Virus record (IMG/VR): IMGVR_UViG_3300030406_001777
Location: 1 to 37,559 of that record
DNA length: 37,559 bases
Source: a virus
Direction: 5' to 3' (one strand)
A model generated the notes under the pieces. That model worked only from the letters and a program-made list of their open reading frames with translations. It was not told the DNA's origin and made no database searches. Every line of letters begins with the position of its first letter. Position 1 is the stretch's first letter. A program made the translations under genes and the position numbers. Positions 1-37,559 of the stretch are shown piece by piece.

Positions 1-77
1 CAATCAACTAGAAGACTCAGACCTCAAGGTAAAACCTCCAAGAGGTTATCTAGCCTGACACCTGATGGTCTACGCAA
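1..77. repeat. Direct terminal repeat (left copy) of a circular contig
   Basis: These 77 bases are identical to the last 77 bases of the window. The reading frame of the small terminase runs through the repeat without a break when the ends are joined. An exact overlap of this length is what a k-mer assembler leaves on a circular molecule, so I read it as an assembly overlap and not as a biological terminal repeat. Confidence 0.93.
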
Positions 78-627
78 GAGGGTTCTTGACGCATTGCCTT
101 TATGGGAGTCCTACCCTAGGTGGTTCAGGAGAGTATTGGTTTTGCTGCCGACCCATGGTGACATATTCTCGATAGCAGAAGAACTCAACACTACGCCTGA
201 TGAACTGCAAGGCATGATAGAGAAGAGACCTACATTCTCAAAGCTTGTGAAGTTTATTCAGGATAATGGGCACTACCCTGCCTGTGCATCAACCAAAGAG
301 TATTTGAAACATGCCAACCTTGTTGAGCACTATGCAAACGAGAGCACTGTGTCTGCTGTGATACACTTAGAAACAAATGCAGGACAGGCACCAATCAATC
401 ACAAGATTGTTGACGCTGCAGGATGGTTTGCAAACATAGAGAATGACACAGAAAGAGTGCGAAGGCAACAAGCCCATGCACTTGACAAATACGAGAAGAA
501 GATAGATTCTGATGCTGTGGTTGAAGAAGTAGAAGAAGGATTGCAACCCTTTGTAAGAGACATCAACCCGGAGGAACAAGATGGCAACGAAGAGAGTAAA
601 GTTTCCGAGGAGACAAGCACTAAATAG
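1..627 (+). CDS. terS: Terminase small subunit (main part; gene starts at 37456 across the contig junction)
   Basis: This is the DNA-recognition subunit of the packaging motor, which selects the phage DNA and hands it to the large subunit. When the contig is closed, the frame begins at ATG 37456 and gives a 217-residue protein. The N-terminus is Arg/Lys-rich. A helix-turn-helix-like stretch follows (about residues 58-76, around IFSIAEELNTTPDELQG), then a long charged helical region, and the tail is Glu-rich. Identification rests mainly on position directly before the large terminase, with an overlap of 47 bases, and on this architecture. A TTG at 94 is in frame but lies inside the gene and has no ribosome site, so it is not the start. 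The start lies just downstream of a strong promoter. Confidence 0.72.
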   Translation, partial: QSTRRLRPQGKTSKRLSSLTPDGLRKRVLDALPLWESYPRWFRRVLVLLPTHGDIFSIAEELNTTPDELQGMIEKRPTFSKLVKFIQDNGHYPACASTKEYLKHANLVEHYANESTVSAVIHLETNAGQAPINHKIVDAAGWFANIENDTERVRRQQAHALDKYEKKIDSDAVVEEVEEGLQPFVRDINPEEQDGNEESKVSEETSTK

Positions 628-2146
628 GGCTGTCCCCAAGTATACTCCTTCGCCTTGGCAAGAGGCACTACACCGTAATCAGGCAAAGCGTAAATGGGTC
701 TGGGCTGGTCGTAGAGCAGGCAAAGGTAGAGCAGCCATTCAAGAAGCTATCTCCACTATCCTAGAAGCAAGCAAGACTAAGTTTATTGTCAAAGGTGAGG
801 ACGTCACCGACACCCTAGTTCCTGACATACACATCTGGACTGTTGCACCAACCAAGGCACAGATGAGACAGGTGTGGAATGAGATGAAAGCCTACATACC
901 CAAGTACATGTGGAAAGGTTATGATGGCAGGGCTGGTGGTCGTGGTGGTGCGTGGCATGAAGATGAATTTTATGTAGAATTAGAAGTAAGAACCCCCAAC
1001 GGGGGGTTTGCAGCCGATACTGTACGCAAGAGCGTACTTTGGGAACTACGGTCTGCAGACAATCCCGAAAGTTTGCAGACTGTAGGGCTAGACTTTTTAC
1101 ACATTGCAGAAGCACAAGATGTCAAGAAAGTAGCATGGGACAAGGTAGAGTGGGTAACAGAGTCACCCGGCAGAATGGGCAGAGTCTTTGCAGAAGGCAT
1201 CCCCCCTATCGCAAGGTCACACTGGTTCTCTAGGCAGTTTATGTATGCAGAGAACAACCCGTCATTACAAAACCTTGCTGTGCGTGCAACAAGCTTTGAC
1301 AACATGTATTTGACTGATTCGCAAAAAGACAACATACGTCAACAAAGAGAAACCACAGCAGAGTGGATATGGGAGCGTATGGTAATGGCAAAGCAACCTG
1401 ATGTCGGTGGTGGATTCTTCAGAAAGATAGAAGACGCTGCTGTTGGCATGGAGCTTGCAAAACCGATTGAAGGACATGCTTATGTAGCTGGTCTTGACCT
1501 TGGTAAACAGGTAGACCCGACTGTGCTAATAATCAAAAACAGGATAACTAGAGAAAGTGTGCACAGTATTGAAATGTTAAAAACAGACTGGGTGTTGCAG
1601 AAAGAAACTCTGCTTGCCGAGCTTGCACAATGGAACTGTGAGACTGTAATGATGGACTCATCAGGCATGGGTGGTGATGTATTATTTGACGAATTGCTGA
1701 ACCTCGGTGTCCCTGTAGTTGGCAAGAAGTTTACGCCTCAAACCAAGTACCAGTTATTCTTGAACTATGCAGTCGCTTTACAAAATGGTACTGTGTCCTT
1801 TCCTCCAGAGTGGTCCAAATTGAGAAGTGAGTTAGATGCAATAGAGGTACAACAAGCTGGTCTTGGATATACCTTTAGGCACCCGAACTCTGCACATGAT
1901 GACTGGGTGGATGCCGAGGTTTTAGCCCTCATGGCGTGTGACCCACCTGACGCTATGGATGATGAGTACGAGCCAGTGACCACAATAAGAACAGTTGAAC
2001 CTTTGACGGAAAATAGTGTATCATACACGGGAGGACGCTTAATGCGTTGGAGGAGACAAAGAAAAGCAAAGCAGTTACAAGAACTGCGAAAGTTGACAGA
2101 GATTAGCACAAATCAGGAGTCACTCCTGCTTGACGCAATGGATTAA
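581..2146 (+). CDS. terL: Terminase large subunit (packaging ATPase and nuclease)
   Basis: This is the motor protein that drives DNA into the prohead and cuts it. The 521 residues carry an N-terminal ATPase with Walker A GRRAGKGR (residues 43-50) and Walker B with catalytic Glu in VGLDFLHIAEA (E177). The C-terminal RNase H-like nuclease shows the first Asp in AGLDLGK (D306), the second in VMMDSSG (D359) and a late acidic cluster in HDDWVDAE (D440-D444). The start at 581 is fixed by GGAGGA five bases upstream, although it overlaps terS by 47 bases. Length and domain order are normal for tailed phages. The portal gene follows directly. Confidence 0.95.
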   Translation: MATKRVKFPRRQALNRAVPKYTPSPWQEALHRNQAKRKWVWAGRRAGKGRAAIQEAISTILEASKTKFIVKGEDVTDTLVPDIHIWTVAPTKAQMRQVWNEMKAYIPKYMWKGYDGRAGGRGGAWHEDEFYVELEVRTPNGGFAADTVRKSVLWELRSADNPESLQTVGLDFLHIAEAQDVKKVAWDKVEWVTESPGRMGRVFAEGIPPIARSHWFSRQFMYAENNPSLQNLAVRATSFDNMYLTDSQKDNIRQQRETTAEWIWERMVMAKQPDVGGGFFRKIEDAAVGMELAKPIEGHAYVAGLDLGKQVDPTVLIIKNRITRESVHSIEMLKTDWVLQKETLLAELAQWNCETVMMDSSGMGGDVLFDELLNLGVPVVGKKFTPQTKYQLFLNYAVALQNGTVSFPPEWSKLRSELDAIEVQQAGLGYTFRHPNSAHDDWVDAEVLALMACDPPDAMDDEYEPVTTIRTVEPLTENSVSYTGGRLMRWRRQRKAKQLQELRKLTEISTNQESLLLDAMD

Positions 2147-6916: not shown

Positions 6917-9900
6917 ATGCCAACGCCATGGGAAAAATATCAACAGAGAAGAAATAATCCATACCGAGGTGGTAGTGGATTTAAAGGTAGAGCATTAGCT
7001 CAAGCCAAGATAAATGAGTATCAGTATCCATACGAAATGGGTAGTGTTACATCTGTAGAAGTTGACCCAGAGATAGAAGAGCAGAAACGTAGAGAAGCAG
7101 CAGAGGCACAGAAACAAAAGATGCGTGGAATACTAAGTGGTCCAGCAGCATTGTTTCCTAACTTGCAAGATTTAAAAACAGGAGAAGGCTTAAAGCTTGG
7201 TGTCGATGAAACAGCTCTTCCAAAAAGAGAGCAAGAAATAAGTGGCAAACAAAACCCTTTTAAATGGGCATTATCTAAAACAGTTGCACCTACCCTAGAA
7301 AAATGGCAAGAGCTTACAGAAGCCACTGCAGGTTTAGTTGCTACCCCTTTTAGTAGTGAATTGCAATCTCTTAAAAACCAAGGTGTATCTGCAGGTGACA
7401 GGTGGAGAGCAATAGACTTGCCTACTGCAAGAATAGGTAAGCCTAAAGGTGAAGGTTTTGGATTTGATGTTGGTGTGAAAGGTGCAGTTGAATTAGTTGT
7501 TGACCCTGTAGGTTGGGCAACTACTGTTATGCCAATAGGGTTAGCGTTCAGGGCTGCATCATATCCTGCAAGAAAACTAGGAGCAGTTGCAGGAAAATTG
7601 ACTGGTGTAACAAAATTATCAGAGTCAGGTAAAAAAATATACGCTCAAGCAGTTAGACAAGCTGACGATGTAATTAAGGCTGAAATGGATAATGTATCGC
7701 AAGATATATTTACAGAGTTATATGAAAGAAATGTTTTAAATGGTCCAACAAAAAATGGTGGTCTTGGCAAAATTGATGAAGCAAGAGTTATGTCAGAACC
7801 AAACCCTGACTTAAACATACTCATGAACTACGATGAAATCATGAGCAGTAAAGACCAAATTGGTTACGTAGATGGATTGCTTGCATATATTAATGATAGA
7901 GCAACTGCAGCAGAAAAAAGAAGAAGTGGAACTTTTTTTAGAGCCATGAATAACGCTGTGCAAAAGTTTAGACCAAGTGTTGCTAAAAGAATGAGTGCAG
8001 AGGGCAGGATAGAAACTTATTACAATCAATACATTACTGCAATACCGACTGCAGCAAGATTAGCTAAATCTGAGTTAGAAAATATTGACCATGTTGACTT
8101 ATTTGATTTAAAAAGAAAATCTTTGTCAGCTAAAGTAAAAGCAGACTTGCCTGAAGGTGTAAAACCATTAGAGTTTCAAATAAACGAACAAGCATTTATT
8201 ACACCTAAAATTAACACTGAAACAGTGGCTTTTGCTGACGATGGCAATGCCACAAATTTAATTAAAGGAATTAAGGCTTTAACAGATGATGCTATTGACA
8301 CTAAAAGATTAAGGGTCTCTGTTAACACAGACACAAACACAGTAAGTTTGGCTACAGAACAAGGGTTTAGTCTGGGCACACTTAGATTAACAATAAACCC
8401 TACAAGTGGTACAGGCAAAATACCAATTAAAGGTGATGCAAAAACTTTAACATCAGTAAGAAAAGAAATAGAGGAAAGCCTGCAAACGATGAACAAGCGT
8501 GCAGATGCTTTTGGGGGAGATGAAGCCCAGAAACGTTACGCAATACAAGACGATGGTCACTTTGAAGCTTTTAATAGTGCATCTTACACATTTGAACCCG
8601 AAACAACAAACGTATGGCAACTGCCAAAAATATTTGGAAAAAAGGAAGTTGAAAGACTGCAAAGGTTCAGGGAAGATGAACAAATCGCAACTAGCCTTGG
8701 CACGCTTGGTGGAAAATTAAGAAAAGAAATAGCAAGTGATATTGAGCCAATCATTAACCGTATTGGCTTAATAAACAAGCAAGTAGCACAAACAGGTAAC
8801 CAGCAAGCACAGTTTGTTAGAGAAACTGCATCTATAGTTCAAGATGCAAATAGAATATATAAAAACGGAATAAACAGGTATTTTGCTGAAACACAAAACT
8901 TTATAAATAATGCAAACAAGGTTGATGATTTAAAAGGTTTATCTTTTACATTTAGAAGCTTAGCACAACAAGGTGATGAGGTTGTCCCTAAATTGCCACA
9001 AAATTTAGCACAAGCTAAAAGCGAATTGTCAGACTCATTGTATAACTTAAAGAAAAATTTTATAGAGATTAAAGATTTTGTTACTGCAGATGAAGCTTTA
9101 ATTGCTTTAAGAAACCTTGACGATGGTCTAAGAAATGGTCAGCTTAGAGCAAATGTTGTTAACAGAGCTGGTGGAGGGCTAGATGAATTTTTGGGAGAAA
9201 GAGAACTTAATGGTGTTGTAAGGCAAATTATGAGGTCTTATGCACAGAAAAACCAAAACTTAGATTTTCTTATTGAGAATGGAACTAACGTATTACGAAA
9301 AAAATCAGACGCATTTACCCCTAAACTCGTATACAGAGACCTTGAAAAATTATTTGGTAAAGGTGCAAATAGAATAGGAACTACAGGTGCCAAGGCTCCT
9401 GCTGGTCAAATAATAAGAGACCTAAGAAATGAATTTAAAAAACTATATGGATTAAGTATTGAGGACACAGCATCAGTTCAAAAAGAAATGCCATTCTTGC
9501 AATTCTTGGATATGGCAGGCACAGTTGTAGGTCATTCACATAGCACAGGCAGACCAATAAGGTTATACACAACTGGGTATTTTGAGTTAACAAATAAACA
9601 AGCTAGCTACTTAGATAAATTTTATGAAGTAATGGACAGGGGTGGTCAGCTTGTTAGAGAAGAAGGTGCATTGGGTGCATTTGATGACGTTGTTCAAATG
9701 AAAACATCTAATTATGTTCATCACTTAGTTGAATCAAGAAATCAGATTATGAACGAATATCAAGTAATGGAAGAAATTATGCAAAACGGTGCAACAATTA
9801 GCCCTAAACTTGGTAAAGAATTATTCCAAAACACAAGAAGTTTTACAGATGTAATTACAGAAGGTATTGAAGCTCAAGGTATAAAGTATGCTGACAATCC

Positions 9901-12862
9901 TGCAGATATTGCAGAGGCTTTCCATAAACAAGTTCAAGAATCAATAGCAAACGAGCATTTAAAAAATAAAATTAGAGTTGTTGCTGCAAGAGAAATTGAC
10001 AGCGTTGCAATACAAAAAAGAATACTAAACACTTTTACTAGCTCAAGAATTATAGGGCAAGGCTTAACAGGTTTTTCTATTAATAACGCAAGAGCTTTTA
10101 CCGAAACTTACAAAAAGAATTATTTAAATAATAAAAACAATCAGTTATTTATAAAAAAGAATTATCCTGAATTTGCAAAAACTTTAGATGAATTAGCTGA
10201 TATAGATAACCTTGACGCTACAACAATAGATGTTTTAGTAAAAAGAAACACTACAGGGGACGTTGTGAAAAGATTTTTAGATGATGTAGCAGAGAAAGAA
10301 AGATATCAACAGAAATACGTAGACAACATTAATCTTACTCTTAAGCAAACTAAATTCACCGTGCCTGAAGTTTTTGGAAAAGGAATATTTGCAAGAGAAA
10401 GAGTTGCAACACAAGAAAGGTTGCTTAGGAGATATAACGGCACAAAAAGTGGTGCAAACATATATGGCTTAGAAGATATACTTTTTGATGATAAATTAGC
10501 TACAAACATAGAAAATGCACTAGGCATATCAGAGCCCGGCACGTTTGCTAAATTTGCTGATGCAACATCTAACGTAACTGACAAGATAAGAGTATTGCAG
10601 ACAGCCATTGACCTTGGTACTCCATTCTTGCAAGGTTTGCCAACGCTTGTTACAAGACCAACATTATGGGGTAAAGCAACTATTGAAATGTATAAAACAG
10701 TCTTATTCCCAAGAACAGGTGGTGCAGTACAACGAACTGCTTTTTACAGAGAAAAAAGAGATGTAATTAGAAAAATGAACAGGCTTGGAATTAATATGTC
10801 AGGCACAGGTAATGATTATTTTAGAGCTTTAGATAATGGTGGAAGCGTTGGTGATTACATAAAGGGTAAAGGTTTTAGTGATGACAATGTATTTGTAAAA
10901 ACAGGTGTAGTAGCCGATAAAACTATTGGAAGATTCCAAGATGGGTTTGAACATTTTGGTGACATGTTAAGAGTAGGATTGTTTGAAGCACACGAAAGAG
11001 ATGTTGTTAAAGGTTTAAGTGCTGATGCTTTAAGAACGTATGAAAGAACAGGACAGGTGCAAGATGATGCAGTTCGTAAGAATCTTGATGACTTAGGTCA
11101 GTACGTAAATCAAATGACAGGTGCTTTTAGCCACACACAGAACATGATATCTAGGCAACAAGCAAACATTGAAAGAACATTTTTATTCTTTTCACCAAGC
11201 TACACACGTGCGTCAATGGGGCTAGTTGGTAGCGTACTATCAGGTGGGCTTAAAGGTGAGGCTGCACACACAGCACTTAGAAACATGCTGGCTGCAGGTG
11301 TAGGCATGCACGTAGGAGTTGCTGCTGCACAAGCACAAGCACAAGGCAAACCTATTGAAGAATTTTTAAATTTAGACCCATCATCTTCCAGCTTCTTAAC
11401 TACAGACGTTGGTGGAGTAAAAGTAGGATACGGTTCTTTCTGGAACTCATCATTTAAATTATTTGCAAGAATATTAGAGGACCCTTCTTTTAGAGGAGAT
11501 GTCTTAGACTCACCATTGTTGATGACAGGTGCTGGTAGAGGGCAAGCTGGATTTGATGAATCAGGTATTAAAAGCAAGATAGCAAACAATCCTGTTGTGC
11601 AATGGCTTAGAGGTAGAAGTTCTCCTGCTGGTTCACAGTTTTGGAACTTAGGTATGGGTTCTAACTATCTTGGAGAAGAGTTATCTCCTGTATCAATAGA
11701 TGCAGCACAAGAAATTGGAAGCAACTTGTTCCCGTTTTGGGCACAAAACTTTTTTGACTCAGGTTTTACTAATGGTGCAACTTCAGCTCCTTTTGAATTT
11801 TTTGGTTTTAGGACATACGAGATACCACCATGGGAAAGAAGAGATGCAATACGTGATGAGATTGCTATGTTGAGGCACGATACATTATGGAGAGACCTTA
11901 ATGATTTACAGAAAAAACTTATACTTGATGACAAAGGCAACAAGAACGTACAAAGGTTAATTGAGCTTGATGAAGAAATAAAAGAGAAGAGACGAGTTGT
12001 AGGTGGTGGTGAACTTGACAACCAAATTGATGATTACTATGCAGACATAGAAAGGGCACAGCAATACTACGAATCAGAAACTAAAAAACTATTACATTTA
12101 TTGCACAACAGGGTTTCAGATGAAAACGGTGTAGTTATACAAACACCTGCAGATGTTATAAGAAACGAGAAAAGAATTAGAAACGAAAAGAACACTGCAA
12201 TAGAACTGCTAGATGACCCTATAGCAAACCCACAATACCAAAACGTAAAAGCATATTTTGAGTCTTTTAATAACTTTGACAAAACAGAAAGACCAGAAGA
12301 CTACTTTGCAGAAAAATATGCTGATATATACTTTTCGCCAGAATGGGAAAACTTTAATTTTTATGACTTTAAAGCAAGAGACGAAGCTATAGCTGACCTT
12401 AAGAACAGATGGGGTGGCGATGGAGAACAGTTAGAACAGTATGCAAAAAACTTGTTGTTTGGCAGAAAGCTGCAGGTAGACCCACTTATATCTGAATATT
12501 ACATAGGGGTCAATAAATACTTTGACCTATATTACAAGGGTGCACACGATGCAATCTTTACAAACAAGTACAGAGGTGAGTTTGATGAACTGTACGAAAG
12601 ATTTAGAAAAGCAGGTGTGCGAGACCAAGAATTAATATTAGAAAAAAACAAAAGGTTTAGGAAAGCACTTAACTCGGAAGTTGGTGCAGTGAGAGAGTCT
12701 ATGAGAAAAATAGACCCTGCACTAGACGCTTTCTTGTATAGGTTTAGGGTGGGTGGCATCACAAAACCTATGCACCAATTTAACCTTGATAGGGTAGATG
12801 AACTCAACCAATTAGGACACATGGACGAGTATGTTCCACAATGGAGAGTTGCAGGACAATAA
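6917..12862 (+). CDS. Giant virion protein (1981 residues), probable internal or DNA-ejection protein
   Basis: This is the largest gene, nearly a sixth of the genome. Large proteins between portal and capsid genes in podoviruses are usually carried inside the capsid and ejected with DNA. The protein is mostly charged helix. A hydrophobic stretch lies near residues 180-235 (KGAVELVVDP...GLAFRAA). A conspicuous hydrophobic region lies near residue 1430-1485 (FLFFSPSYTRASMGLVG and AAGVGMHVGVAAAQAQ). The FFSPS motif after an asparagine-rich helical stretch recalls a segment shared by large phage polyvalent and internal proteins. I see no lysozyme, protease or nuclease motif. GAGGT precedes the ATG by about six bases. 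The C-terminal 300 residues are again acidic/basic helix. Confidence 0.82.
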   Translation: MPTPWEKYQQRRNNPYRGGSGFKGRALAQAKINEYQYPYEMGSVTSVEVDPEIEEQKRREAAEAQKQKMRGILSGPAALFPNLQDLKTGEGLKLGVDETALPKREQEISGKQNPFKWALSKTVAPTLEKWQELTEATAGLVATPFSSELQSLKNQGVSAGDRWRAIDLPTARIGKPKGEGFGFDVGVKGAVELVVDPVGWATTVMPIGLAFRAASYPARKLGAVAGKLTGVTKLSESGKKIYAQAVRQADDVIKAEMDNVSQDIFTELYERNVLNGPTKNGGLGKIDEARVMSEPNPDLNILMNYDEIMSSKDQIGYVDGLLAYINDRATAAEKRRSGTFFRAMNNAVQKFRPSVAKRMSAEGRIETYYNQYITAIPTAARLAKSELENIDHVDLFDLKRKSLSAKVKADLPEGVKPLEFQINEQAFITPKINTETVAFADDGNATNLIKGIKALTDDAIDTKRLRVSVNTDTNTVSLATEQGFSLGTLRLTINPTSGTGKIPIKGDAKTLTSVRKEIEESLQTMNKRADAFGGDEAQKRYAIQDDGHFEAFNSASYTFEPETTNVWQLPKIFGKKEVERLQRFREDEQIATSLGTLGGKLRKEIASDIEPIINRIGLINKQVAQTGNQQAQFVRETASIVQDANRIYKNGINRYFAETQNFINNANKVDDLKGLSFTFRSLAQQGDEVVPKLPQNLAQAKSELSDSLYNLKKNFIEIKDFVTADEALIALRNLDDGLRNGQLRANVVNRAGGGLDEFLGERELNGVVRQIMRSYAQKNQNLDFLIENGTNVLRKKSDAFTPKLVYRDLEKLFGKGANRIGTTGAKAPAGQIIRDLRNEFKKLYGLSIEDTASVQKEMPFLQFLDMAGTVVGHSHSTGRPIRLYTTGYFELTNKQASYLDKFYEVMDRGGQLVREEGALGAFDDVVQMKTSNYVHHLVESRNQIMNEYQVMEEIMQNGATISPKLGKELFQNTRSFTDVITEGIEAQGIKYADNPADIAEAFHKQVQESIANEHLKNKIRVVAAREIDSVAIQKRILNTFTSSRIIGQGLTGFSINNARAFTETYKKNYLNNKNNQLFIKKNYPEFAKTLDELADIDNLDATTIDVLVKRNTTGDVVKRFLDDVAEKERYQQKYVDNINLTLKQTKFTVPEVFGKGIFARERVATQERLLRRYNGTKSGANIYGLEDILFDDKLATNIENALGISEPGTFAKFADATSNVTDKIRVLQTAIDLGTPFLQGLPTLVTRPTLWGKATIEMYKTVLFPRTGGAVQRTAFYREKRDVIRKMNRLGINMSGTGNDYFRALDNGGSVGDYIKGKGFSDDNVFVKTGVVADKTIGRFQDGFEHFGDMLRVGLFEAHERDVVKGLSADALRTYERTGQVQDDAVRKNLDDLGQYVNQMTGAFSHTQNMISRQQANIERTFLFFSPSYTRASMGLVGSVLSGGLKGEAAHTALRNMLAAGVGMHVGVAAAQAQAQGKPIEEFLNLDPSSSSFLTTDVGGVKVGYGSFWNSSFKLFARILEDPSFRGDVLDSPLLMTGAGRGQAGFDESGIKSKIANNPVVQWLRGRSSPAGSQFWNLGMGSNYLGEELSPVSIDAAQEIGSNLFPFWAQNFFDSGFTNGATSAPFEFFGFRTYEIPPWERRDAIRDEIAMLRHDTLWRDLNDLQKKLILDDKGNKNVQRLIELDEEIKEKRRVVGGGELDNQIDDYYADIERAQQYYESETKKLLHLLHNRVSDENGVVIQTPADVIRNEKRIRNEKNTAIELLDDPIANPQYQNVKAYFESFNNFDKTERPEDYFAEKYADIYFSPEWENFNFYDFKARDEAIADLKNRWGGDGEQLEQYAKNLLFGRKLQVDPLISEYYIGVNKYFDLYYKGAHDAIFTNKYRGEFDELYERFRKAGVRDQELILEKNKRFRKALNSEVGAVRESMRKIDPALDAFLYRFRVGGITKPMHQFNLDRVDELNQLGHMDEYVPQWRVAGQ

Positions 12863-26943: not shown

Positions 26944-27101
26944 TGCCACTGTACGTATTTATATGCAACAACGATGACTGCGAGATTGAAAGCTTTGAAG
27001 AGTTAGCAGGGTACAATGACGACACAACATTCATGTGTCCGGGGTGTGGAGAGGTTACTAAATCTAGGAAAGAATTTTACCAATTTGATTTCAGGATGTA
27101 A
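26943..27101 (+). CDS. Small zinc-ribbon protein, FmdB-like
   Basis: A 52-residue protein that starts within the previous stop (TAATG). It begins MPLYVFIC and has two cysteine pairs, CNNDDC and CPGC, 25 residues apart, the plan of FmdB-type regulatory zinc ribbons, whose usual start is MPxYxYxC. The spacing of the first pair (C-x4-C) is unusual for that family, which mostly has C-x2-C. It is the last gene of the rightward operon. Function unknown; a zinc-binding structural or regulatory role is likely. Confidence 0.7.
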   Translation: MPLYVFICNNDDCEIESFEELAGYNDDTTFMCPGCGEVTKSRKEFYQFDFRM

Positions 27102-27105
27102 TATG

Positions 27106-27121
27106 GTTGCGTAGTCGCAAC
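27106..27121. other. Short perfect hairpin after the last rightward gene
   Basis: GTTGCG and CGCAAC pair perfectly around a TAGT tetraloop, four bases after the stop codon of the zinc-ribbon gene. It may protect the 3' end of the mRNA. Confidence 0.6.
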
Positions 27122-27156
27122 AAACTAAACGCTGACTATTAATTAAAAAGGCTACG

Positions 27157-27188
27157 TACGAAGGGGAGCATTTACGCTCCCCTTTGTA
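27157..27188 (+). terminator. Strong hairpin terminator at the convergent gene boundary
   Basis: AAGGGGAGC (27161-27169) pairs with GCTCCCCTT (27176-27184) around ATTTAC. Including one G-U pair, the stem extends outward to 13 bp (27157-27188), and TTTGTATTT follows. On the opposite strand a T-run (GCCTTTTTAATT) follows after about 10 bases, so it may also act on the leftward unit. It separates rightward genes ending at 27101 from leftward genes ending at 27288. Confidence 0.8.
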
Positions 27189-27194
27189 TTTAAG

Positions 27195-27251
27195 AAAGGA
27201 GAACTGACTAAACAGTTCTAAAAATATTTTAGTTTAGAATGTCTCCTTTTT
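27195..27251 (+). terminator. Second, complex hairpin followed by a T-run
   Basis: AAAGGAGA (27195-27202) and TCTCCTTT (27242-27249) close a region that contains the alternative hairpin AGAACTG/CAGTTCT (27200-27219) and a CTAAAC/GTTTAG pair. A run of T follows (27247-27251). It could be a back-up terminator for the rightward unit. The overlapping stems cannot all form at once. Confidence 0.6.
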
Positions 27252-31438: not shown

Positions 31439-33148
31439 TTATCCTTTGAAAAACGACAACACGTTAACGATGTCGGTAGTTGATAAGTCTGTTGAATTAG
31501 GCACCTCAACTGCAAGGTCTGCAGGTAGAGGGTGCTTGCCATTGTTGTGTCCAATGTACAAGGTTGCAAACCTAACACCTTGTCGTAGCCAAGTTTCTGA
31601 TTCTCTCCTGCAACAACCAACAGGGTCATCAGCCTCGCACACATTAGGTGCACCATCTGTAATGACAAGTACCTTTGAACTCTCCAAGTCAATAATCTTG
31701 GATAGCTTTTTCATTGCACCACACAATGGTGTAGCCATCTGCTCTACTTTGGGCACAGTACCCTTGGTAATCGGAACCAAGACACTGTAATGTCCAAGTG
31801 TATGACGATAGTCTTTTGAGGCAGTAAACCCATAAGCTTTGGTGTCAGGGAATCTTGCTTGCACTGCAGACACAACGTTCATTGCTGCGTGCATTCGGTT
31901 CCACTTGTATCTATGGTTTCCCATTGACGCTGACATATCAACAAGCACAACCATTTCGGTTGCAGTTTGTGGATACTTGTGGAACACACGAGAGTCGCCA
32001 AGCAATGGCAATCGCCATGCTCTACGTGAAACTCTGTGACCTGAATGACCCAATGTGTTTGCACCTCTGTCCAATGCACCTTCCAACTCAAGTGATTGAA
32101 TCGGAACTGTTGGTGTAAATGGCACAGTATCTCCTGTGTCATACAGGACTGCAGTGCATTTGTCTGACTTCATAGCTTTCTTCGCTTGGTTAAGTTTTTC
32201 TTGGTTCTTGAGGTTGTCCTCGACCACACTCTCAAAGTTATCGGGTGCATCGCCAACCCCTGCAGTAGCACGCTCAGTCTGAGTTGACTGCTTCGTGTCA
32301 TCCACAACAGCTTGCTTGACATCCTCGATAATCTCATCAACCACATCGTCAATGTCCTCAACAGTCTTTTGCTCTTCAGGCTCACCATTCTTTGGGTGCA
32401 CCGTAGCTCTGCTTGTAGTAACTTTCCCTGCAGGTTGGTCATCAAGCTTACCCTGCTCGTGTAGTTGAAACTCAACTGCCATGTCCAATGCACCAAGCAA
32501 TGTTGCAGTAGCGTTGGTTGTTTCTCGCAAGCTAGCAATCAAGTCTTTGTGACGTCTGCACAACGACTCAATCACAGGGTCTCGTATCTCACGCAGGGTG
32601 CACATTCCGTACAGATATTTACGGAACCAACCCCATGTCAAGTCAAACTTTTTACTCTCGCCTTTGTCTGTAGCAAGTTGCAAGCTGAATATGCTACGTG
32701 TGCCAGCACGCAATACTTCTTGACTCTCAATTTCTTTGAGGTGTTCTTTCCAAATCTTTGGTCTGTTGAAATGCAGACTCGCAAGCTTGGCACACCTTCT
32801 GTTGTCCAAGATGTTGAAGATGGTGTCAAAAGCAGTCACGTTGTAACCTGAATTAGCTATGGGATTACGTTTGGACATAATCTCCCTTAGCTTTTTGACA
32901 ACACGTTGTGCAACTTCTTTGGGATGAAACTTTACCTGAGCAATAGTCAGCAGGTTTGCATTGAATGGTTGCCTACCTGCAGGCTTTGACACACGCCAAC
33001 CATCGCCATACCAACTCTCAACTCTTGAGTCGTAGGTCTGACCTGAGTGGTTTGTATCAATCTCAAGTGTACTATCCAAACCTGCTTGGTGTTGCAAGAA
33101 GTTTAGATGGTCCTTGGTCTCGTCTTTTGGTTTTCTGTGTATTTTCAT
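31439..33148 (-). CDS. VWA-domain protein, CobT-like partner of the AAA+ ATPase
   Basis: The 569-residue protein ends in a von Willebrand A domain (residues about 395-560) with a metal-binding site: DMSAS (D404, S406, S408), a Thr in MATPL (T473) and ITDGAP (D498). The middle (255-330) is acidic, as in CobT and MoxR-partner proteins, and the N-terminal 240 residues are helical. The AAA+ gene lies directly upstream, seven bases away, so together they resemble MoxR/VWA or CobS/CobT pairs. Cobalt chelation is unlikely here, as no CobN homologue or corrin gene is present. Confidence 0.83.
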   Translation of the reverse strand: MKIHRKPKDETKDHLNFLQHQAGLDSTLEIDTNHSGQTYDSRVESWYGDGWRVSKPAGRQPFNANLLTIAQVKFHPKEVAQRVVKKLREIMSKRNPIANSGYNVTAFDTIFNILDNRRCAKLASLHFNRPKIWKEHLKEIESQEVLRAGTRSIFSLQLATDKGESKKFDLTWGWFRKYLYGMCTLREIRDPVIESLCRRHKDLIASLRETTNATATLLGALDMAVEFQLHEQGKLDDQPAGKVTTSRATVHPKNGEPEEQKTVEDIDDVVDEIIEDVKQAVVDDTKQSTQTERATAGVGDAPDNFESVVEDNLKNQEKLNQAKKAMKSDKCTAVLYDTGDTVPFTPTVPIQSLELEGALDRGANTLGHSGHRVSRRAWRLPLLGDSRVFHKYPQTATEMVVLVDMSASMGNHRYKWNRMHAAMNVVSAVQARFPDTKAYGFTASKDYRHTLGHYSVLVPITKGTVPKVEQMATPLCGAMKKLSKIIDLESSKVLVITDGAPNVCEADDPVGCCRRESETWLRQGVRFATLYIGHNNGKHPLPADLAVEVPNSTDLSTTDIVNVLSFFKG

Positions 33149-33155
33149 GTAGCTC

Positions 33156-33971
33156 CTAGCTTGTAAAGTGTGCAGTTGCTGATGTCATCACAACTGATTG
33201 ATAGTCAGGTTGTATCTTGTCTCTTAGGTTGATACGTATTGCATCAACTGCATCAAAGCCACGACCAACTAGCTTTGCCAAGTACATAAGGTCACGTGTC
33301 GATACGTAAGTAACAGGCTCGTTCCTCATGTCATTCGCCCAATTCATGAACGCTTTTGCATACTGTTCGTCCCCACCAAGTATGTCTTCTAGTGCAGTCT
33401 TCTCGTCACACAATGGTTCTGTAATGAACTTGTAAATCATCATCCTAGACTTGAGAGCCTCGTCAAGATTCACAACATTGTATCCTGCTGATGGTGGGTT
33501 TGCAGTAGCTAGTAGTTGAAAGTCCTTGTGAACTTTAATCTTCTCGCCACTCTTTTCTGTTAGGGTAAGTATTCTTGTTTCATCGGTAACACCCATGATT
33601 CTACCGATGTGTTGTTGGTTAAGTCGTGTAATCTCGTCCATCAATAAGAACGAGCCTTCACGTGCTGCACGTGTGAGTGGACCATCAGACCATGACATAG
33701 TAGGTCTGCCTTCATCATCTGCGACTGCTTGGTATCCACCAACCACGTCAATGATGTCCAATCCCGGATGGCAACCAACGTACTCTGCATTTCTGCCAGA
33801 CTGCTTGATTACCTCGTGCATAACTTGTGTCTTACCACAACCTGCACTACCTAGTAGTACCACAGGGAATGGTGAAACGTTTTTGATATCCTCAATCAGG
33901 TCAAGACCTGCTTGGGTAAATCTTGGTTTATGAGTTCGGTCACGAACTGTTTTTAGTTGCATGTGTGCCAT
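33156..33971 (-). CDS. MoxR/CobS-type AAA+ ATPase
   Basis: The 271-residue protein has Walker A GSAGCGKT (41-48), Walker B FLLMDEI (D112, E113), sensor 1 in LLATANPP (N158) and the arginine in LKSRM (R176). The order and spacing match the AAA_5/MoxR group that includes CobS. Its proteins work as hexameric remodelling machines with VWA partners. AAGGAGAAAAC precedes the ATG. It forms the first part of a module with the VWA gene; the target is unknown. Confidence 0.87.
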   Translation of the reverse strand: MAHMQLKTVRDRTHKPRFTQAGLDLIEDIKNVSPFPVVLLGSAGCGKTQVMHEVIKQSGRNAEYVGCHPGLDIIDVVGGYQAVADDEGRPTMSWSDGPLTRAAREGSFLLMDEITRLNQQHIGRIMGVTDETRILTLTEKSGEKIKVHKDFQLLATANPPSAGYNVVNLDEALKSRMMIYKFITEPLCDEKTALEDILGGDEQYAKAFMNWANDMRNEPVTYVSTRDLMYLAKLVGRGFDAVDAIRINLRDKIQPDYQSVVMTSATAHFTS

Positions 33972-34512: not shown

Positions 34513-34556
34513 TTATTTAATTTATTTATTCATATAAATATGAATAAATTAAATAA
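34513..34556. repeat. AT-rich palindrome upstream of the 97-residue gene
   Basis: A 19-base arm at 34538-34556 (ATATGAATAAATTAAATAA) pairs with the sequence before it (34513-34535), which has one extra 4-base unit, around a two-base loop. It is followed by AAGCGA. A similar palindrome with the same AAGCGA flank lies at 35780-35825. It may be a promoter, operator or mRNA structure. Confidence 0.7.
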
Positions 34557-35779: not shown

Positions 35780-35825
35780 TTATCTTTATTCATTATTCAT
35801 TATCTTTGATAATGAATAAAGATAA
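35780..35825. repeat. AT-rich palindrome in leader of the first early gene
   Basis: TTATTCATTATC (35793-35804) pairs perfectly with GATAATGAATAA (35808-35819), and TTATCTTTATTCA (35780-35792) can alternatively pair with the 13 bases at 35813-35825. The flank TAAGCGA is shared with the palindrome at 34513-34556. Confidence 0.7.
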
Positions 35826-35944: not shown

Positions 35945-36051
35945 GTATCTTTATCTTCCCTTATTTTCCCCCGTCTTCCCGGTGCTGCGTACACAATAAT
36001 TTTGCGTTGTAGCGATTTCGTTGTGGTTCGCCCCTCGCTGTCGGGATTTAA

Positions 36052-36067
36052 ACGAATACCCTACAAC
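36052..36067 (-). repeat. 16-bp inverted repeat, left arm
   Basis: ACGAATACCCTACAAC is the exact reverse complement of 37220-37235. A related direct-strand copy (15 of 18 bases identical to 37218-37235) lies at 36004-36021, so this short region contains an imperfect inverted repeat as well. It contains the recurring CCCTAC motif. Confidence 0.8.
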
Positions 36068-36106
36068 TTAGAATATAGATCTCGCTTTGCGAGTTCTATA
36101 TTCTAA
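36068..36106. other. Long hairpin, 12-bp stem plus 5-bp tip
   Basis: TTAGAATATAGA pairs perfectly with TCTATATTCTAA; after one T-T mismatch the tip CTCGC/GCGAG closes a TTT loop. It is non-coding and lies between the early promoter and the upstream terminator. Its role is unknown; a regulator site or small RNA element is possible. Confidence 0.75.
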
Positions 36107-36180: not shown

Positions 36181-36219
36181 AAAAAAAGGGCTAGGCTGGA
36201 AGAACCAACCTAACCCTTT
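36181..36219 (-). terminator. Rho-independent terminator of the 36394-36725 genes
   Basis: Read leftward, the hairpin is AAAGGGTTAGGTTGG, TTCTT, CCAGCCTAGCCCTTT, a 15-bp stem if two G-U pairs are counted, followed by seven T. The G-U pairs exist only in this direction, so it ends leftward transcription after the small gene at 36227, eight bases upstream. Confidence 0.88.
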
Positions 36220-36226
36220 GAACAAG

Positions 36227-36394
36227 CTAACAATCATTGTCGATGATTTCAATGTAAGCAACATTTAAACCCTCTTGACGCATGTCTGCAAAGGCTTGTT
36301 CTTTAGCAAGCTTATCTAACCTAGCCTGCTTTATCTGCTCTTGTGCGTCTGCCAGCAGATTGGCATCTATTTTGATGTACTTAGGCTGAGACAA
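36227..36394 (-). CDS. Small protein with TTG start (55 residues)
   Basis: TTG 36394 has AAAGGAG seven bases upstream, and the 55-residue frame runs to a stop just before the terminator. It begins MSQPKYIKIDANLLAD and is a helix rich in Gln, Lys and Ala, ending IEIIDNDC. It overlaps the preceding zinc-finger gene by 14 bases. Function unknown. A TTG start is unusual, but the ribosome site and the downstream terminator support it. Confidence 0.6.
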   Translation of the reverse strand: MSQPKYIKIDANLLADAQEQIKQARLDKLAKEQAFADMRQEGLNVAYIEIIDNDC

Positions 36395-36725
36395 TCTTGG
36401 CTCCTTTCTTAACTAGAGCAGATACAGCTTTTTTATTAGCCTTACACCAGTTCTTTTGTTTATGACCAGTGCCATAATCATTTGAAAAGCCTTTTGCAGT
36501 CTGGAATGTTCTACCACACCTCGAACATGCGTAACTATGTTTGTTTCTACCGTGTTTGATAGGGCTTTTCAACTTCATCAATTCCATGACATCTAGCTTT
36601 TTAGGCTTGTCAACTAATGTCTCGGCTGACATACCTTGTAACCTGATAGCGTCTACAATTGCTGAAGTAATAGTCGCAACCATTTCTTCATTCATAACTG
36701 CTTGTTGTTTTTTTGAGTTAGCCAT
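36381..36725 (-). CDS. Zinc-finger protein, possible DNA-binding regulator
   Basis: The 114-residue protein has an N-terminal helical region (1-55) and a C-terminal finger C67-x2-C70 ... H88-x5-C94 in a basic context (YACSRCGRTF). AAGGAGAAAT precedes the ATG. It is the first leftward gene next to the structured region, which is a good place for an early regulator or origin-binding protein. No promoter upstream could be assigned with confidence. Confidence 0.72.
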   Translation of the reverse strand: MANSKKQQAVMNEEMVATITSAIVDAIRLQGMSAETLVDKPKKLDVMELMKLKSPIKHGRNKHSYACSRCGRTFQTAKGFSNDYGTGHKQKNWCKANKKAVSALVKKGAKIVSA

Positions 36726-36856
36726 ATATTTCTCCTTGGCTTGTTTATAAGAGAAAATCTCTCTATGTTTTTGTGCTATAGCATGCTGAAGTCAACAACA
36801 CCCCAAGCTGGAGGCTTGCGAGCTTTTGCCGAACGTGCGTTCTTCACGCTCGTGAG

Positions 36857-36883
36857 TTCTGTCTTCAGATAGAGAAGACAGAA
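36857..36883. other. 10-bp perfect hairpin
   Basis: TTCTGTCTTC pairs with GAAGACAGAA around AGATAGA. Confidence 0.75.
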
Positions 36884-36961
36884 TCGGTTGTTTACCAGTA
36901 TGCTAAGCTAAGAAAACAGAGAGAGAACGCCAACCTGCGTAAGGTTGATGCCACTTAACAG

Positions 36962-36982
36962 GTGTCACATCTCGTGTGACAC
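36962..36982. other. 8-bp perfect hairpin
   Basis: GTGTCACA pairs with TGTGACAC around TCTCG. Confidence 0.72.
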
Positions 36983-37023
36983 GAACTACGATAATGTTAC
37001 GACTAGAACGAGCAGGGATTACT

Positions 37024-37040
37024 AAGGGATTCTATCCCTT
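37024..37040. other. 7-bp hairpin with 3-nt loop
   Basis: AAGGGAT, TCT, ATCCCTT. Confidence 0.65.
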
Positions 37041-37048
37041 GGTTCGTC

Positions 37049-37066
37049 TGGGGGACGAGACCCCCA
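37049..37066. other. GC-rich hairpin TGGGGG/CCCCCA
   Basis: Six perfect pairs around ACGAGA, followed directly by CCATGG. Confidence 0.65.
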
Positions 37067-37104
37067 CCATGGGCTGACGAGGGGGTTGAGAGCCCAACGG
37101 CTAG

Positions 37105-37129
37105 GTTGCACGCTATCTCTGCGTGCAAC
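37105..37129. other. 9-bp perfect hairpin
   Basis: GTTGCACGC pairs with GCGTGCAAC around TATCTCT, one base before the three-way junction. Confidence 0.78.
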
Positions 37130-37130
37130 T

Positions 37131-37197
37131 GAACATAAGCAGGGGGCTACGCAAGTGCGTAGATCCCCTACACGGACGCAAGATGCGTCTTATGTTC
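37131..37197. ncRNA. Three-way-junction RNA-like element
   Basis: GAACATAAG (37131-37139) and CTTATGTTC (37189-37197) close two inner hairpins. The first is AGGGG, one bulged G, CTACGC, AAGT, GCGTAG, AT, CCCCT (37141-37169). The second is GACGCA, AGA, TGCGTC (37175-37189). Nearly all 67 bases are accounted for by perfect pairs, which is far beyond chance. It is not a tRNA by its loops and lacks a T-arm. The strand is not determined by the pairing. Confidence 0.65.
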
Positions 37198-37219
37198 ACA
37201 CTAGTGCTAGCCGTAGGGC

Positions 37220-37235
37220 GTTGTAGGGTATTCGT
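37220..37235 (+). repeat. 16-bp inverted repeat, right arm
   Basis: GTTGTAGGGTATTCGT is the exact reverse complement of 36052-36067 and lies next to another GTAGGG copy at 37213. Confidence 0.8.
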
Positions 37236-37327
37236 ATATGTTATGGTGGTACTCAGCGTGCTGAAACCCTACGTTGCACTTAGGGGACTATAGGGGTGTA
37301 TGTGTGTACCCGTGCTATACGCTAGTA

Positions 37328-37350
37328 GTACGTTCTACGTCCTAACGTAC
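37328..37350. other. 7-bp perfect hairpin near terminase promoter
   Basis: GTACGTT pairs with AACGTAC around CTACGTCCT. Confidence 0.62.
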
Positions 37351-37371
37351 CCCCTACTCTCTAAAGAAAAA

Positions 37372-37393
37372 GAATATATATAAATATATATTC
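37372..37393. repeat. AT-rich palindrome
   Basis: GAATATATAT, AA, ATATATATTC is a perfect palindrome just upstream of the terminase promoter. Such DNA melts easily, as at origins and some promoters. Confidence 0.7.
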
Positions 37394-37418
37394 CAAAAAG
37401 AAAGGTCTCTCTCCCCCA

Positions 37419-37448
37419 TTGACAGAGCTGTTTTTTTTGCGATATTAT
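37419..37448 (+). promoter_or_regulatory. Promoter of the rightward virion operon
   Basis: Perfect -35 TTGACA (37419-37424) and -10 TATTAT (37443-37448) are 18 bases apart. The predicted transcription start is about 37455, next to the ATG at 37456, so the mRNA would be leaderless. There is no Shine-Dalgarno sequence before this ATG, unlike nearly all other genes here. Confidence 0.8.
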
Positions 37449-37455
37449 GCTCTTT

Positions 37456-37559
37456 ATGGCAGATAACAACAACCCATACAGGCAATCAACTAGAAGACTC
37501 AGACCTCAAGGTAAAACCTCCAAGAGGTTATCTAGCCTGACACCTGATGGTCTACGCAA
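37456..37559 (+). CDS. terS: Terminase small subunit, 5' end (continues at position 1)
   Basis: ATG GCA GAT AAC at 37456 opens the frame that continues through the 77-base overlap into the gene at 1-627. The protein starts MADNNNPYRQSTRRLR. An in-frame ATG at 37447 overlaps the -10 box and is unlikely to be in the transcript. Confidence 0.72.
   Translation, partial: MADNNNPYRQSTRRLRPQGKTSKRLSSLTPDGLR
37483..37559. repeat. Direct terminal repeat (right copy)
   Basis: Identical to positions 1-77; the two copies represent one sequence in the circular genome. Confidence 0.93.

Follow-up and report, generated by a model that had tools for sequence, protein, structure and literature searches.

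A maintained hairpin-rich element in the gene-free early/late junction of a marine phage, and inverted copies of the adjacent early gene in four of its relatives

Why should a phage of a compact family keep 730 bases without a gene between its early and virion operons, and why are these bases so crowded with hairpins? The question is raised by positions 36726-37455 of the record IMGVR_UViG_3300030406_001777, the whole of which (37,559 nt) is called the window here. The first and last 77 nt of the record are identical, about a common assembly k-mer size, and this terminally redundant contig was read as a circle of 37482 unique bases. Rightward virion genes, including TerL and the portal, extend up to about 27 kb; the leftward genes include a helicase loader, a RecT-like protein, a VWA protein and a MoxR-type ATPase. 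At 31439-33971 in this early operon, the VWA-domain protein adjoins the MoxR/CbbQ/CobS-like AAA ATPase. The gap sits exactly between the two transcription directions, and GC and AT skew both switch sign there. Its borders are the leftward early gene starting at 36725 and TerS starting at 37456, as a preliminary description of this DNA had placed them. That description had also found no gene in the gap, and indeed no ORF of at least 60 aa lies wholly within it, no ORF of at least 50 aa in it is common to relatives, and a tRNA/tmRNA search of the window found none.

Folding sets this gap apart from the rest of the genome. The minimum free energy on the + strand is -288.7 compared with -212.4 +/- 6.0 for shuffled sequences (z = -12.8), and the - strand gives z = -10.05, so that the comparison with shuffles which the preliminary description had proposed comes out strongly on both strands. 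Across the whole genome in tiles of 700 nt, the region is the extreme outlier on both strands, at about -13.6/-11.9 (unit, 5.5 kcal/mol), followed by its neighbour at 36031 (-7.6/-7.3) and then 33931 on the - strand (-7.0). The earlier impression of a hairpin density above that of the remaining genome is thus borne out. In windows of 100 nt, the region is far less exceptional (mean z of -2.0 vs -0.48 elsewhere) because much of the signal is pairing over more than 100 nt. Taken by itself, 464 nt of the variable hairpin region has z = -9.7 on the + strand and -9.9 on the - strand. Perfect helices make up 25-38% of the region in the window and in relatives L003, L007 and L016, compared with 4-9% in E. 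coli 16S rRNA or RNase P RNA, for which the fold z is about -0.6 to -4.6. The region is therefore more perfectly paired than ordinary structured RNA.

The perfect and near-perfect stems, and the three-way junction at 37131-37197, are collected in Table 1 and agree with the eight or more perfect hairpins and the junction first described. The suggestion of small RNAs, in the plural, gains no support: a structured element is present, and its helices nest in multibranched domains.

Table 1. Features of the early/late junction and its borders (window coordinates)
Feature	Position	Strand	Remarks
Left word copy	36052..36067	-	exact inverted copy; 3' of first early gene unit
Hairpin beside left word	36068..36106	.	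near-perfect, directly beside word; hairpins at same place in most relatives
Terminator of first early unit	36185..36219	-	15-pair stem, T run
First early gene	36381..36725	-	114 aa, basic, CxxC...H...C zinc-finger-like; part of exchanged stretch
Variable hairpin region	36726..37219	+	non-coding, about 494 nt, without conserved ORF
5' domain	36758..36926	+	closing stem 36758-36788/36896-36926 around several hairpins
Stem-loop	36857-36883	+	10 perfect pairs, inside 5' domain
Stem-loop GTGTCACA/TGTGACAC	36962..36982	+	8 bp
Middle domain, type A	37014..37223	+	fold common to window, G001 (L003/L032) and G005 (L008)
Stem-loop	37021-37043	+	10 bp including one U.G; middle domain
Stem-loop	37049-37066	+	6 bp; middle domain
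Outer stem	37097-37104/37207-37214		encloses hairpin 37105-37129 and three-way junction
Stem-loop	37105-37129	+	9 bp, within outer stem of middle domain
Stem	37131-37139/37189-37197		closes three-way junction
Stem-loop	37142-37167		
Stem-loop	37175-37189		5 bp
Right word copy GTTGTAGGGTATTCGT	37220..37235	+	junction of variable and constant parts
Constant 3' domain	37220..37405	+	~190 nt; blocks GGRACTATARGGG; CTAAAGAAAA-palindrome-CAAAAGAAAGG
AT-rich palindrome	37372..37393	.	10 bp, between A-rich flanks; other subfamily has different palindrome
Late promoter TTGACA-18-TATTAT	37419..37448	+	7 nt before TerS ATG
TerS start	37456..37559	+	wraps on to window 1-627; 218 codons with stop
TerL	581-2146		after TerS

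A search with TerL gave 16 IMG/VR contigs as relatives, with best segments at 80-100% identity; one contig is nearly the same as the window. Similar DNA was found in none of the cultured or annotated phages, where the relatives recovered by TerL are only distant (about 24-30% identity), and GTDB genomes gave no relative by TerL or by the palindrome pattern. Searches of Rfam 15 (GOLLD, ROOL, group I/II introns, tmRNA and others) at gathering and permissive thresholds returned no family, the best sub-threshold match having 19.4 bits vs a threshold of 44.

Among these relatives, the hairpins and their neighbour change together. The variable region is unrelated to that of L005 and L007 although the TerL proteins are 96-99% identical, and in near-continuous alignments similarity to L005, L007 and L008 starts only at about 37206-37211. 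The family of the first early protein also changes completely between lineages, the zinc-finger-like basic form being present in some, and genomes with the RNA here called type A also carry the type A early protein. In these alignments, the hairpin part behaves as an exchangeable cassette that is swapped together with the first early gene. All relatives examined carry the segment in the same orientation, and all keep a non-coding stretch of several hundred bases here. The strong fold is not universal, folding z being weak in L010, L013 and L015.

In the type A middle domain, the sequence varies but the shape is retained. In an alignment from three marine phages, 16 of its 49 pairs are altered on both sides, none on one side only, and 95.2% of cells are paired; the structure was taken partly from folding of the same three sequences and the compensation is essentially that of one comparison, window/G001 vs G005, so it is rated as strong rather than final. 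Shuffles give 5.5 +/- 2.0 compensated pairs and slid controls 0-1. The covariation that the preliminary description had named as a check is thus found, with compensatory changes above the control level as in conserved structured RNAs. Sixteen double changes with no one-sided change and 95% pairing indicate a structure under constraint or actively maintained, and 36726-37455 is almost certainly a real, maintained structured element. A covariance model of the type A domain matches only the window, G001 and G005 genomes.

Which strand would act, if the element acts as RNA, is answered by weaker signs. Both strands fold almost equally well. In symmetric helices, there are 34 G.U vs 21 A.C oppositions, a weak excess in favour of the + strand, and the internal single wobbles of the + folds comprise 17 G.U vs 8 A.C; helix-end pairs give no strand bias. 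One type A pair has switched from U.G to G.U, a swap that makes sense for a + strand RNA. Promoter-like + sites occur at the 5' edge of the region in L008 (TTGACA-16-TATTGT) and L003. The window itself has no clear promoter for a + RNA, and its region has no leftward consensus promoter, other promoter types being possible. A transcribed RNA from the junction is plausible, and these signs lean towards a rightward RNA rather than a leftward one or an element of DNA only. A T7-type promoter, GGGGACTATAGGGG at 37283-37296, was considered and dropped: it occurs exactly only once in the genome, its number of matches at 3 mismatches is reached by 28 of 100 shuffles, and no single-subunit polymerase was found among the proteins scanned. 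The rightward operon encodes a protein of 1981 aa (6917-12862) with no Pfam or solved-structure match, and the idea that it is a virion RNA polymerase was rejected on the same result.

Downstream of the hairpins, conservation takes another form. The constant 3' domain has 66-98% sequence identity in relatives and no conserved fold, its RNAalifold energy being small on both strands, and two motif scans of IMG/VR for it recovered only contigs of this phage family. The palindrome is conserved together with its A-rich flanks (37364-37405). Iteron-like GTTCTA repeats, with zero to two copies, were not convincing. Beyond the 3' domain lies the late promoter, whose family form is TTGAC[AG]-18-TATTAT; the spacing is identical in L005-L008, L010 and L013, and L017 has TACTAT. 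As only 7 nt lie between the promoter and the ATG, here and in most relatives, the mRNA of the TerS/terminase operon is probably leaderless.

This border also receives insertions. An ORF of 235 aa lies between the late promoter and TerS in L018 (107-814) and at the same place in L011, L012 and L016. It matches MUG113, related to GIY-YIG-type nucleases, and is nearly identical where TerL differs by up to 17%; it is probably a mobile nuclease gene that spread recently. Another inserted ORF, of 174 aa and with no Pfam match, lies between the 3' domain and TerS in L015 (1817-2341), and the late promoter of other relatives is absent at this insertion site.

The boundary between the exchanged and the constant parts is marked by a word that recurs, inverted, on the far side of the early gene. 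In the window, it is the longest such match, 16 nt, and 0 of 200 shuffles reached this length. Exact inverted pairs of 15-17 nt, again unmatched in 200 shuffles, are present in 8 of 12 genomes, and another two have pairs of 11-12 nt; L005-L007 have no more than 9-11 matching nt between the copies. The inverted copies stand 1.2-2.2 kb upstream of the right copy, and the word and the end of the 3' domain are a fixed distance, about 173-186 nt, apart. Its identity is specific to the lineage, the copies agreeing within a genome (GTTGTAGGGTATTCGT, GCCCCTTGTAGAACC, GCCCCCTGTATAACC and CCCCTTGTAAACCTT). Most genomes have a hairpin directly before the word on the early side; the word itself is, by eye, not self-complementary. 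Since the flanks of the word are unrelated, simple gene conversion of a longer tract is no explanation. In L016, AGGCGTGATGCC directly adjoins CCCCTTGTAAACCTT in the non-coding region, but in the inverted copy a run of near-perfect hairpins, ~100 nt long, comes between them, an arrangement that looks as if whole hairpins had been gained or lost.

Where the hairpins may have come from is suggested by four relatives. In L005, L006, L007 and L015, the early gene next to the non-coding stretch recurs in it as an inverted copy with gaps, at 12-17 sd above shuffles (scores of own gene vs non-coding stretch over shuffles: L005 245/133, L006 249/135, L007 326/166 and L015 325/149). The copy in L015 is colinear, gapped and inverted, and it covers the early unit in full, starting with the 5' leader and finishing with the end word. 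The same shuffled-alignment test gave no gene-copy signal in the window, G001, G005 or the other subfamily, and no other gene among the loci compared is a source of the window's hairpins. The non-coding stretch of L005 matches its own gene with z of 13.8 and that of L007 barely (2.5), and the stretch of L007 matches its own gene with 17.7, above the 6.6 for the gene of L005. As each copy matches its own gene best, either copying took place repeatedly or the copies have been renewed. Between L005 and L006, there are 3 mirrored changes, 46 in the gene only and 30 in the copy only. Co-evolution of gene and copy base by base, through ongoing pairing or conversion, is unsupported by these counts; the copy does not track the gene, and renewal would have to be episodic.

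The copies differ in how far they are folded. In L005 and L015, the gene-copy part folds hardly better than a gene; the copy in L007 is clearly folded, most strongly toward its 3' end; and the region in the window is hairpinned throughout. Ordered in this way, the relatives form a series from gene copy to hairpin array, of which the order is our inference. As the window's hairpins have no gene similarity, their own origin from an inverted copy would likewise be read from the relatives. In L015, the two arms have linkers in common, in the arrangement CTAGAACTA[hairpin]CCGAAGCACG, yet the perfect hairpin that these enclose differs from arm to arm, which would be expected of stems exchanged as complete units. 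A rod-like RNA across both arms was considered and set aside, since strong pairing is found only in the gene-copy genomes L005, L007 and L015, where the gain from cross-arm pairing is -68 to -193 kcal/mol vs about -26 to -42 in others; this pairing is due to the inverted copy and is hence not general.

These observations can be brought together in a mechanism with two parts. Template switching, or fold-back copying, in replication would supply the inverted copies and would make and repair perfect stems. It would explain stems that are nearly free of wobbles, double changes without intermediates and the replacement of a hairpin at the same spot, and it would also account for the turnover of sequence and for two strands that fold nearly alike. 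There is precedent: template switching makes and maintains RNA hairpins with multi-base compensatory jumps (Monttinen and Loytynoja 2022, PMC8794818), and perfect stems, such jumps and reverse-complement insertions are common to both cases. The precedent concerns single stems in RNA genes, whereas here a whole region is involved, with an inverted gene copy on the kilobase scale adjoining in relatives. The short inverted words have a parallel in the ODIRA model, in which such words near origins are the sites of fold-back copying (PMC4689423). Template switching is the likelier main maker of the stems.

Could copying alone be enough? Recurrent fold-back copying and palindrome repair might fill a gene-free gap with functionless hairpins, and the perfect stems with few wobbles, the near-equal strand folding, the turnover of sequence and the recognisable inverted gene copies in four relatives are all as such a neutral process would leave them, template switching alone being able to create and maintain perfect stems (PMC8794818). 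Nevertheless, phages with an 11% difference in TerL have the multibranched type A architecture in common, the compact family retains several hundred non-coding bases in the relatives examined, and the matched word and the 3' domain hold fixed places; a purely neutral by-product is unlikely. The retention of one architecture across an 11% difference in TerL is not explained by template switching, and selection on the fold is therefore invoked. The fold would then be kept for what it does, the likeliest role being that of an untranslated, rightward RNA of about 0.6 kb in the service of the early/late junction, quite possibly within a transcription-dependent origin like that of phage c2, of which the conserved AT-rich palindrome would be the DNA part. 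That the gap holds a structured and probably rightward-transcribed early/late junction element, possibly including an origin, has about an even chance of being right. The longer chain, by which a structured non-coding RNA was repeatedly born from an inverted early-gene copy through template switching at the matched word, then hairpinned and kept for its fold, is rather unlikely to hold as a whole.

The other readings differ in the use they give to the fold. An origin of the c2 kind proper, in which a non-coding transcript primes or opens the origin and the palindrome is a site of unwinding or binding, is a tentative proposal. It has the layout in its favour (leftward early genes, a non-coding junction and a late promoter directly before the first rightward gene), along with the skew switch, the flanked palindrome, and an exchange of cassette types that recalls the dissimilar types of c2-type origins (PMC7150918). 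The skew, however, follows the direction of transcription too, repeats were not found in convincing number, and the c2 transcript is leftward and not unusually folded, whereas the bias here is weakly rightward. Position, skew switch and close c2 layout make an origin plausible by analogy, and origin function of some kind is somewhat less likely than not. An arrangement comparable to lambda nutL/nutR or HK022 putL/putR is improbable beside this: both divergent transcripts would carry a recognition element, the first early protein would be its partner, and the hairpins would belong to an RNA-polymerase-modifying leader. The word of 15-17 nt would indeed lie in sense in both predicted transcripts, each time after a hairpin or stem, it is identical within a phage and different between lineages, and in some lineages the product of the first early gene is small, basic and zinc-finger-like. 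Yet the word is not itself a hairpin, its copies in L005-L007 match over so few bases, the early protein family is replaced completely between lineages, and the late promoter is downstream of the element, so that TerS need not be reached from it. Equally improbable is a role at the level of DNA, in which cruciforms or hairpins of single strands would serve packaging or recombination and the matched words would be the crossover cores. Stems that avoid wobble pairs on both strands, the adjacency to TerS, a matched core of fixed length with unrelated flanks resembling recombination cores, and the insertion of two different genes between the region and TerS in five relatives would fit such a role, but none of the relatives examined has the segment inverted, the U.G to G.U swap is RNA-like, and the contig behaves as a circle with a k-mer-sized repeat, so that nothing indicates fixed ends here. 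Packaging, which the preliminary description had offered as one function, gains no support beyond this adjacency to TerS.

Several known systems resemble the junction in part. The origins of the c2 type are divided into groups that share no similarity with one another, and they may depend crucially on a non-coding transcript (PMC7150918); the record of phage c2 (NC_001706) has a 611-bp junction with early promoters and a putative origin. Here, as in c2 and other Ceduovirus, a non-coding junction of 0.6 kb separates divergent early and late modules, with a late promoter before the first late gene. The likeness is one of layout and not of fold, as the c2 junction folds no better than shuffles. 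Consensus promoters corresponding to PE1 and PE2, the early promoters flanking the leftward transcript of c2, were not found in the window, and replication activity has been shown for c2-type origins, whereas here it is putative. The GOLLD and ROOL RNAs (PMC12286853) are also phage non-coding RNAs, of 0.6-0.8 kb and with a multibranched fold. They differ from the window, which has no Rfam match and no tRNA, whose stems are unusually perfect and whose 3' part keeps its sequence but no common fold. The CBASS-activating cabRNA (PMC10686824) is likewise a structured phage RNA from the terminase region, but it lies inside the terS/terL coding sequence, whereas the element here is upstream, in a gene-free gap. 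What is unusual is the relation between a hairpin array, the neighbouring gene and the matched word. There is a likeness in plants, where microRNA genes are born by inverted duplication of the target gene and a non-coding hairpin locus thus derives from an inverted copy of a coding gene. Small-RNA machinery is not known in phage, unlike the plant systems, and the phage copy is in the sense of the gene on the opposite strand, its product being putative.

If the preferred reading of a copied and then selected junction element is true, one phage family would hold a natural series from gene copy to hairpin array, in which the rise of complex RNA folds could be watched along with the reason why compensatory changes jump. 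Marine phages would have a new junction element that governs the early/late switch or replication, and also a defined matched word that can be tested directly for a role in pairing, recognition or crossover. Even the dull outcome would be of use, as a compensatory-change signal that comes from copying and not from selection would be a warning for covariation-based RNA discovery.

Hairpins of other kinds occur elsewhere in the genome. Where the rightward and leftward genes converge, the intergenic stretch 27101-27250 is strongly folded, with z about -7 on both strands, and is probably a two-way terminator. Near-perfect AT-rich hairpins also lie immediately upstream of leftward early genes, at 35780-35825 and 34513-34556, as if each early mRNA started with a hairpin.
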